Under the pieces are notes generated by a model that was not told the DNA's origin, ran no database searches, and saw only the letters and a program-made list of their open reading frames with translations. Below are positions 14,752 through 19,851 of a stretch of 32,567 nucleotides of DNA, piece by piece. The stretch is from Candidatus Omnitrophota bacterium (GTDB taxonomy: Bacteria; Omnitrophota; Omnitrophia; Omnitrophales; JACQLI01). Each line of letters starts with the position of its first letter. Positions within the stretch are counted from its first letter, which is position 1. The position numbers and the translations under genes were made by a program. The DNA is taken from NCBI GenBank assembly GCA_016179745.1, contig JACPCP010000020.1, positions 1-32,567 on the forward strand, given 5' to 3'.

Positions 14752-14818
14752 GAAATCAAGCATTTAATCTGACTCCATTCTCAAAGGACGCTGGGACGGT
14801 TGGGGGTTTCAGGTATTT

Positions 14819-14834
14819 GGAGAGGTGGCCGAGC
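14819..14834 (+). pseudogene. tRNA-Ser 5' fragment next to homing endonuclease gene
   Basis: GGAGAGGTGGCCGAGC matches the first 16 nt of tRNA-Ser(TGA) at 15 of 16 positions and shares its first 9 nt with tRNA-Ser(GCT). No matching 3' half follows; the sequence runs into the endonuclease reading frame. It looks like the remnant of a tRNA-Ser split or duplicated by the inserted gene. Confidence 0.6.
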
Positions 14835-14853
14835 TTGGCCCAGGAAACACGTT

Positions 14854-15516
14854 GTGGGAAGTCTGAAATCGATTAAAATTCCGGGTTGTTCCGAAACATT
14901 GGCGGAATTCCTAGGAATATTTTTGGGAGACGGCAATATTCGCAGCGATTTCCAGATCGCTGTTTCGTTCAACCTGAAAACAGAACAGCTCTACGCCGAT
15001 TATGTGTCCTGGCTAATCGATTCTTTGTTTGGCTTAAAGGCCTCAACCCGTTATCGGTTTAATTACGGAGGCGGAGAGCTGGTAGTTAATAGCCGCCGTT
15101 TGGTGGAATTTTTATACTCCCAAGGAATGACCAAAGGAGACAAAATTAAAAAGGGCGCCTCCCTGCCTCGTTGGGTTTTTGATAATGAGCAGACAAGAAA
15201 TGGTGCGGCAAGAGGCTTATTTGATACCGATGGGTGCGTTTACAAGCACAGCTATCTTGTGAGGGGGGCCGTTTATCAGTATCCGAAATTAGCCTTCACA
15301 TCTTATTCTAGGATAATCCGGAAACAATTCGCCGAGTTGCTTACACTGTCGGCCTTTCATCCAAAGGAATATGGCAATCGAGTCTGCGTCTATTCACAGA
15401 AAGAGGTGTTACGATACTTTCAGGAGATCGGGACCCATAACCCAGCTTACCAGTTGCGCTTTGAACGTTTTTGCGAAGACGTTGAGTTAGAGTCGCTTTT
15501 TTATGCAACAGCCTAA
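14854..15516 (+). CDS. LAGLIDADG homing endonuclease
   Basis: The protein has two LAGLIDADG-type helices: LAEFLGIFLGDG (residues 16-27) and AARGLFDTDG (118-127), each ending in the metal-binding acidic residue, about 100 residues apart as in single-chain enzymes. Such proteins cut long target sites and spread their own genes, usually within introns or inteins; here no intron core was recognised around the frame. I chose GTG 14854 (220 residues) because AGGAAA lies about 8 nt upstream; the frame extends up to a TTG at 14800 and would then run through the tRNA-Ser fragment. The TAA stop directly abuts the first base of tRNA-Ser(GCT). Base composition is more A/T-rich than in neighbours, consistent with transfer. 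Confidence 0.85.
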   Translation: MGSLKSIKIPGCSETLAEFLGIFLGDGNIRSDFQIAVSFNLKTEQLYADYVSWLIDSLFGLKASTRYRFNYGGGELVVNSRRLVEFLYSQGMTKGDKIKKGASLPRWVFDNEQTRNGAARGLFDTDGCVYKHSYLVRGAVYQYPKLAFTSYSRIIRKQFAELLTLSAFHPKEYGNRVCVYSQKEVLRYFQEIGTHNPAYQLRFERFCEDVELESLFYATA

Positions 15517-15769
<253 letters not shown>

Positions 15770-15842
15770 GCGCCCGTAGCTCAATGGATAGAGCACTGGT
15801 CTACGGAACCAGTGGTTGGAGGTTCGAGTCCTCTCGGGCGCG
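15770..15842 (+). tRNA. tRNA-Arg(ACG)
   Basis: Acceptor GCGCCCG/CGGGCGC, D arm GCTC/GAGC, anticodon stem CTGGT/ACCAG around CTACGGA (anticodon ACG), T arm GGAGG/CCTCT around TTCGAGT. The discriminator is G and CCA is not encoded. In bacteria the A34 of this tRNA is deaminated to inosine by TadA, whose gene is the next one downstream. Confidence 0.95.
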
Positions 15843-15879
15843 AGTATTATTTGGCGAATGAGATCGAGAGGACTCGAAG
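15825..15879 (+). repeat. 55-bp repeat, copy 1, including the tRNA-Arg 3' end
   Basis: The unit starts with the T-arm and acceptor end of tRNA-Arg (CGAGTCCTCTCGGGCGCG) and runs 37 nt beyond the tRNA. It matches copy 2 (15966-16020) at 52 of 55 positions; all three differences are G in copy 1 versus A in copy 2. Each copy is bounded by 12-bp inverted arms, CGAGTCCTCTCG and CGAGAGGACTCG. It resembles an attachment-site duplication at a tRNA 3' end. Confidence 0.8.
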
Positions 15880-15882
15880 GGA

Positions 15883-15965: not shown

Positions 15966-16020
15966 CGAGTCCTCTCGGGCGCGAGTATTATTTAGCAAAT
16001 GAAATCGAGAGGACTCGAAG
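15966..16020 (+). repeat. 55-bp repeat, copy 2
   Basis: This is the second copy of the tRNA-Arg 3'-end repeat, 141 bp downstream of copy 1, with the same 12-bp inverted arms. It contains the tRNA acceptor sequence CGGGCGCG without the rest of the tRNA. Its last base is the first base of a possible GTG start of tadA. Confidence 0.8.
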
Positions 16021-16514
16021 TGACAAAGCTTTCGCGAAAGATTCATGAGGAGTATATGCGCGAGGCCCTGAAAGAGGCCCGGCGATCCCTGGAAAAAGGG
16101 GAGGTGCCGGTGGGCGCTGTTGTGGTTTGGCGGGGGAAAGTCATCGGACGGGCACACAATCAGATGGAAACGCTTCACGACCCCACGGCCCATGCCGAGA
16201 TGATCGCCATTACGCAGGCGGCGGAAACCCTCTCGGAGGGGAAGACAAGTCATCGGGGTTCGCTCGAAGGGGCGGCCGTCTATGTCACGAAGGAGCCCTG
16301 TCCGATGTGTGCCGGGGCGATGGTTCTCGCAAAAGCCAAAGCGGTCTTCTACGGAATTTCGGATCCCAAGGCCGGCGCCTGCGGGAGTCTTTACAATATT
16401 GCGGCCGATGACCGATTGAATCACCGTCTTGCCGTGCAGGGCGGGATTTTGGCGGAGGAGTCGAAGCGGTTCTTGCAGGAATTTTTCCGGACCCTTCGAA
16501 AAGAAAAAAGATAG
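16020..16514 (+). CDS. tadA: tRNA-specific adenosine deaminase TadA
   Basis: TadA converts A34 to inosine in tRNA-Arg(ACG). The protein has the zinc-deaminase motifs DPTAHAE (His ligand and catalytic Glu) and PCPMCAG (two Cys ligands), plus EVPVGAVVV near the N-terminus and NHR near the C-terminus, all typical of TadA rather than cytidine deaminases. GTG 16020 gives 164 residues and keeps the helix [13 protein letters not shown] found in TadA N-termini. ATG 16056, with GAGGAG 3 nt upstream, is the alternative and would trim it slightly. A perfect palindrome CTTTCGCGAAAG lies at 16029-16040. It follows its substrate tRNA and is followed by tRNA-Ser(GGA) after 14 bp. Confidence 0.93.
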
Positions 16515-19363: not shown

Positions 19364-19392
19364 TAGAAAACCACAAGCGGCCCGGCTATAAT
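19364..19392 (+). promoter_or_regulatory. Candidate promoter for tRNA-Asn
   Basis: TAGAAA (19364-19369), a 17-bp spacer and a perfect TATAAT (19387-19392) lie about 50 nt upstream of the tRNA-Asn 5' end. No other gene begins in between. Confidence 0.45.
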
Positions 19393-19478
19393 GGCGCCTT
19401 CACTCTTTTTGATCTTTGATATTTGATCTTTGGTTTCTTCTTATTCCCCGGTAGCTCAATGGTGGAGCATCCGGCTGT

Positions 19479-19725
19479 TACGAGGTTAGCAGCTCTCAGA
19501 GGAAACTCTGAGATGAAAAGCGGGCTAAGTCAGGGAAACCTAAAGCCCCAGGGCCAAGGCAATCCTGAGCTAGCATCTTGATTCTTCGCCTTTCCCTCTC
19601 CCTTTTAGGGAGAGGGTTAGGGTGAGGGGCAAGAGGGCAAGTGCAGAGACTTTACACCCGCTACCCTAACGTCGAGTCGAGGGTAAAGAGAAAGTCCGAC
19701 TCTCTGAGCAATCAGAGTCAGATCG
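19479..19725 (+). ncRNA. Group I self-splicing intron in tRNA-Asn (247 nt)
   Basis: P1 pairs exon GGCTGT (ending 19478) with the guide GCAGCT (19489-19494), giving the required U-G pair at the 5' splice site. P10 pairs GGTTA (19484-19488) with exon 2 TAACC. The intron ends in G (19725). P2 is TCTCAGAG/CTCTGAGA with a GAAA loop (19494-19513). P3 is AGCGGG (19519-19524)/CCCGCT (19657-19662). P4-P5 holds GGCAATCCTGAGC, as in cyanobacterial tRNA-Leu introns. P7 is GACTTT (19648-19653)/AAAGTC (19691-19696), P8 ACCCT/AGGGT (19663-19684), and P9 GACTCT/AGAGTC (19698-19719). This looks like subgroup IC3. No ORF is present. Self-splicing is expected from the fold, not shown. Confidence 0.93.
19594..19630 (+). 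repeat. Palindromic interspersed-type repeat inside the intron
   Basis: CCCTCTCCCT (19594-19603) and AGGGAGAGGG (19607-19616) form a perfect 10-bp hairpin, followed by TTAGGGTGAGGGGC. This wording closely resembles a palindromic repeat found scattered in many bacterial genomes. It occupies a peripheral loop between the P4-P5 region and P7, so it extends the intron without disturbing the core. Confidence 0.65.
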
Positions 19726-19765
19726 TAACCGGAGGGTTGCTGGTTCGAGTCCAGCCCGGGGAGCC

Positions 19766-19804
19766 AAAATTGGCGGGGCCACGTCTTGTGGCCTTGCCAA
19801 TTTT
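19766..19804 (+). terminator. Hairpin terminator after tRNA-Asn
   Basis: AAAATTGGC (19766-19774) pairs with GCCAATTTT (19796-19804), and inside it GGCCAC (19777-19782) pairs with GTGGCC (19788-19793) around a 5-nt loop. The 3' arm ends in TTTT and is followed by GTTTCTT. Its A-run/T-run arms could make it work in both directions. Confidence 0.8.
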
Positions 19805-19851
19805 GTTTCTTAGCTGACGGAATTGCAGGGCTATCTAATCCTTCCCGTTGG

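Follow-up and report, generated by a model that had tools for sequence, protein, structure and literature searches.

Group I introns of subgroup IC3 are known from several bacterial tRNA genes, namely tRNA-Leu(UAA) of cyanobacteria, tRNA-Ile(CAU) of Azoarcus, tRNA-Arg(CCU) and tRNA-fMet. According to the accessible parts of PMC4033280, PMC8450103 and PMC3984707, the bacterial hosts are tRNA-Leu, tRNA-fMet and tRNA-Ile and the usual insertion site is 37/38; tRNA-Asn is not mentioned as a host in these excerpts. An endonuclease accompanies the tRNA-fMet group I intron of cyanobacteria (Bonocora and Shub 2001, as cited in the accessible part of PMC3984707), and group I introns were reported in tRNAs of CPR genomes, the excerpt at hand giving no tRNA identities (Lui et al. 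2021, PMC8172020). A 2025 preprint on tRNA introns of Patescibacteria, known from its citation in an excerpt of PMC12641178, possibly concerns the same site as the one described here or a related one, but the intron of the present study originates from Omnitrophota. No published tRNA-Asn group I intron was found in the literature searched, which left out this preprint.

The window, i.e. the whole stretch of DNA analysed (contig JACPCP010000020.1, 32,567 nt, designated C18), belongs to an Omnitrophota draft genome of 1.5 Mb in 25 contigs that is 79% complete; all features of the tRNA-Asn locus given below are located on its forward (+) strand. The tRNA-Asn(GUU) gene of the window is flanked by recR on one side and by a gene for a HI0933-like protein on the other. 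A first-pass annotation had proposed that this gene is split by a 247-nt group I intron at 35/36 and had named a search with the Rfam group I models as a check. The search with RF00028 gave a match over the full model (1-253; window positions 19469-19718) with 70.6 bits at a cut-off of 50 and an E-value of 3.5e-16, and the insert is thus confirmed as a group I intron, which is conventional in itself but has an uncommon gene as its host. Its borders were placed at 19479-19725 by direct reading and by the covariation of P9.0, the first base being U and the last base G. No open reading frame of at least 60 aa that might encode a homing endonuclease was found within these 247 nt.

The 5′ exon extends from 19445 to 19478 and ends with U35 of the anticodon, and the 3′ exon extends from 19726 to 19766, beginning with U36 and including an encoded CCA (19764-19766). 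The gene start at 19445 assigned initially was therefore retained and the end was moved from 19763 to 19766. The joined exons (...GGCTGTTAACC... at the junction) were recognized by ARAGORN as tRNA-Asn(gtt) of 75 nt with a full cloverleaf, a 7-bp acceptor stem, a 5-bp anticodon stem and the junction after base 35, in agreement with the flawless rejoined tRNA predicted before. No tRNA was detected by ARAGORN in the unspliced gene. A consensus scan revealed a promoter-like site (TAGAAA-17-TATAAT, 10/12 matches, 19364-19392) with the tRNA 52 nt downstream; one such site was found and 0.2 were expected, a match in sequence that by itself is no sign of function. Directly 3′ of the tRNA an intrinsic-terminator-like hairpin of 19 pairs followed by a T-rich tail is located (19765-19805). 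Due to the promoter-like site upstream and the strong terminator-like hairpin downstream, the interrupted tRNA-Asn gene looks like its own transcription unit.

The internal guide sequence GGTTAGCAGC is located at 19484-19493, and its GCAGC part is common to all aligned homologues. By direct reading, P1 consists of GCAGC and GCUGU of the 5′ exon, with U-G as the splice-site pair, and P10 consists of GGUUA and the 3′ exon stretch UAACC; the guide GGUUAGCAGC as a whole forms the complement of GCUGUUAACC, the anticodon region after joining. P2 is a hairpin of eight perfect base pairs with a GAAA loop (19494-19513), and in relatives all eight pairs change on both sides. The P4-P5 domain (UCAGGG/UCCUGA and CCU/AGG, 19530-19568) and the 5′ strand of the guanosine-binding helix P7 (GACTTT, 19648-19653; partner 19691-19696) were assigned by the RF00028 match and the pairing test on the alignment. 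The 3′ strand of P3 (CCCGCT, 19657-19662), which pairs with AGCGGG at 19519-19524 and forms a pseudoknot with P7, was assigned by RF00028 and the alignment. In the P9 hairpin (CTCTGA-GCAA-TCAGAG, 19703-19718) six of six pairs change on both sides, with 98% of the cells paired. The extension of P6 (19576-19634) is an inverted repeat derived from the palindromic repeat CCCTCTCCC...GGGAGAGGGTTAGGGTGAGGG, of which diverged copies occur elsewhere in the genome (8 genomic places within 3 mismatches). The folding energy of the intron lies 5.3 s.d. below that of dinucleotide shuffles, the repeat-derived P6 hairpin contributing to this value. In its small size (about 200-300 nt in the known elements), its site in the anticodon loop, the U-G splice pair, the terminal G and the lack of an ORF, where others have none or a small one, the intron is like the bacterial tRNA group I introns, and its core presumably resembles that of the tRNA IC3 introns. 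It is unlike them in its host tRNA-Asn(GUU), in its site lineage, which is centred on Omnitrophota, and in its position at 35/36 inside the anticodon instead of the usual 37/38 given in the accessible part of PMC4033280.

For the analysis of covariation, 28 introns from other genomes inserted at the same site were aligned, and the hand-drawn helices P2, P3, P4, P5, P6, P7, P8, P9 and P9.0 were tested. The family model R1, a covariance model with an RNAalifold structure in which P3 is imperfect, was consequently used for search and alignment and not for the assessment of pairs; on the window copy, which is part of its training set, it scored 186.7 bits (19485-19731). Standard pairs were present in 89.1% of the cells, compared to 71.6% after shuffling and 33-48% when one strand was slid, 35 of the 49 pairs had changed on both sides, and none of five measures was reached by any shuffle. 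P2, P9 and P9.0 vary freely yet stay paired, and P4, P6 and P7 are nearly invariant, in line with a catalytic core. The intron structure as a whole is therefore strongly backed by covariation, and the helices, terminal G, U-G splice pair and P10 listed by the first-pass annotation were all recovered. The group I core, comprising the P3-P7 pseudoknot, P4-P6 and P8, is present according to both the full-length RF00028 match and the helix-by-helix pairing and covariation. Covarying pairs in P9.0 include GA/UC, AG/CU and GG/CC, and by this covariation UAACC is fixed as the first stretch after the 3′ splice site. A terminal G was present in 59 of 59 introns, but G was required by the extraction pattern; the covariation of P9.0 is independent of this requirement. 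Chance resemblance to a group I intron was ruled out by the E-value together with the covariation.

In order to assess the spread of the site, 84,980 species genomes were scanned for tRNA-Asn 5′ halves without AA next, which returned at least 100 stretches. At tRNA-Asn 35/36, 59 distinct inserts were gathered, most of which come from Omnitrophota and a smaller share from Ignavibacteria and Patescibacteria; the same scan also returned many inserts, archaeal and other, that are not of this type. Outside Omnitrophota, the group I inserts at 35/36 among the matches listed were from Ignavibacteria (L046, L071, L125) and Patescibacteria (L084, L118, L120, L101), and of 149 genomes from the class to which the Ignavibacteria genome L071 belongs, 9 were matched by the family model, a count that covers any host gene. 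Among the genomes sampled, the closest relative of the source genome is G078, a member of its family, whose intron sequence is the same as that of JACQLI010000077.1 (L126). As a separate observation, the tRNA-Asn introns of L079 and L108 are identical although their records are titled Deltaproteobacteria and Omnitrophica WOR_2, which may reflect recent transfer, misnaming or a binning error.

About half of 384 Omnitrophota genomes (201) had an RF00028 match, 177 of them above the cut-off. Host genes were typed for 113 hits from 93 genomes, nearly all from the top of the list and including the two of the window genome, so the proportions are biased to the strongest hits: 56 were in tRNA-Asn at 35/36, 29 in tRNA-Tyr at 35/36, 13 in tRNA-fMet at 33/34, 8 in Lys-like and 4 in 23S-like hosts, and 3 were without a host call. 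The initial description of the host as unusual accordingly needs to be divided: tRNA-Asn is an uncommon host gene as judged from the accessible parts of PMC4033280, PMC8450103 and PMC3984707, where it is not named, but it is the commonest site among the strongest hits of the phylum and recurs in Ignavibacteria and Patescibacteria. Examples of group I introns in tRNA-Tyr(GUA) at 35/36 in Omnitrophota are L148, L155, L160-L162, L166, L167, L171, L175 and L281. For some 3′ ends tRNA-Ser(UGA) was considered as the host and was rejected, since long flanks identified tRNA-Tyr(GUA) with exon 1 ...CAGACTGT and exon 2 AAATCTG.

In a tree of 86 intron cores, which included tRNA-Asn 35/36 introns of Patescibacteria, the introns grouped by host gene, with the Asn, fMet and Lys/23S sets separate and the Tyr introns nested beside one Asn branch. 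The 5′ exon end CUGU is common to the Asn and Tyr tRNAs, so that one guide fits both, and a switch of site between tRNA-Asn and tRNA-Tyr introns would be the natural reading. Fifteen of the 59 distinct Asn introns are longer than 500 nt and contain an HNH-type frame, mostly of about 110-150 aa, located in the P1 loop, after the 5′ splice site and ahead of the guide; in L164 the end of the frame overlaps the guide sequence and P2. Nine of ten frames tested matched Pfam HNH at an E-value of 0.1 or better (best 1.6e-5), these ORFs being small and only some of them passing the Pfam cut-off. With an endonuclease encoded in an anticodon-site intron, these relatives are like the cyanobacterial tRNA-fMet intron as it appears in the excerpt of PMC3984707, but they differ from it in an ORF of the HNH type, located in the P1 loop and probably targeting tRNA-Asn, and the window copy differs in having no ORF. 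Compared with these relatives, the window copy has the appearance of a homing-family intron without an ORF. A viral origin was rejected, as none of 2.9 million viral contigs contained the exon-guide pattern.

The first-pass annotation had further argued that splicing would be essential unless a second tRNA-Asn gene exists. All 38 tRNA matches in the draft genome were typed and no intact tRNA-Asn was among them, and pattern searches of the same 79% complete draft likewise found no intact gene. With the same patterns, only the interrupted gene was found in a relative assembled as a single contig (G073, 95% complete), and one intact and one interrupted copy were found in another relative (G099). 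Because an intact tRNA-Asn was not found in the genome, splicing is probably essential to the cell as had been argued, with a second gene possibly lying in a gap of the draft. A second group I intron of 254 nt was identified in the initiator-tRNA (CAU) gene of the same genome (L002, 1511-1764, contig C13), split between 33 and 34; its RF00028 score of 48 bits narrowly misses the cut-off (E 2e-10), and the joined exons give a good tRNA-Met(cat). The initiator tRNA was found in the draft solely as this interrupted gene.

In all probability the locus contains an ORF-less group I intron that self-splices from tRNA-Asn(GUU) at 35/36 and belongs to a site-specific lineage of Omnitrophota. In the transcript, the guide GGUUAGCAGC would pair with the two halves of the anticodon arm of the tRNA, the U-G pair of the 5′ splice site would be attacked by a guanosine bound in P7, and the freed 5′ exon would then attack after the terminal G, by which an intact tRNA-Asn would be released. 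The intron would be part of a lineage spread across Omnitrophota whose HNH-bearing members presumably home into empty tRNA-Asn genes, and the window copy, which presumably lost its ORF, was probably inherited vertically or may be mobilised in trans.

It appears improbable that the gene is instead a tRNA-Asn pseudogene with a decayed, splicing-defective intron and that a functional tRNA-Asn is encoded in the fifth of the genome missing from the assembly. The completeness of 79% and the coexistence of an intact and an interrupted gene in G099 would allow for this, but all core helices are intact, the R1 score is on par with those of relatives, the exons are perfect and flanked by the promoter-like and terminator-like sites, and the single-contig relative contains the interrupted gene only.

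Two further explanations are very improbable. Short inserts near the anticodon were found by the same scan in many archaeal tRNA-Asn genes and would suggest an archaeal-type (bulge-helix-bulge) intron cut out by a protein endonuclease; this is already contradicted by the group I covariance match over the full length, the host is bacterial, and the site is 35/36 and not 37/38, where introns spliced by enzymes canonically lie according to the accessible part of PMC4033280. An assembly or binning artefact could be suspected in a draft of 25 contigs, but a homologous, non-identical intron is located at the same site in a genome of the same family from another record (L126/L147), and the site is common to many independent assemblies.

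The window element, a putative self-splicing intron, is of a known kind, and the Omnitrophota tRNA-Asn intron lineage is possibly undescribed. With modest confidence we lean towards a broader picture, in which group I introns that split tRNA genes underwent a hitherto undescribed radiation across the whole phylum Omnitrophota, tRNA-Asn and tRNA-Tyr are both cut at 35/36 after the common exon end CUGU, the Tyr introns derive from the Asn introns by a site switch, HNH frames of the P1 loop overlap the guide, and ribozymes can be required for the sole tRNA-Asn and initiator-tRNA genes detected in a cell. If this pattern is true, Omnitrophota would provide a rich natural set for the study of ribozyme invasion of essential tRNA genes, of intron moves between tRNAs with the same 5′ anticodon half, and of the loss of endonucleases by small introns. 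Moreover, intron-split genes are missed by standard tRNA finders, so that genomes seem to be without tRNA-Asn and both completeness estimates and tRNA inventories are distorted.

Elsewhere in the window, tRNA-Ser(UGA) and tRNA-Ser(GCU) flank an ORF (14800-15516, + strand) in which a LAGLIDADG_3 domain was recognized (E 3.6e-6). At 14819 the beginning of this ORF overlaps what resembles the 5′ end of a partial tRNA-Ser (GGAGAGGTGGCCGAGC), and tRNA-Ser(GCU) follows immediately after its stop codon; the ORF has the appearance of a homing endonuclease gene sitting at a tRNA-Ser. Additionally, two 58-nt direct repeats with 93% identity were observed at 15825-15882 and 15966-16023, of which the first begins within the 3′ end of tRNA-Arg(ACG) and the second extends over the start of a gene for a deaminase.
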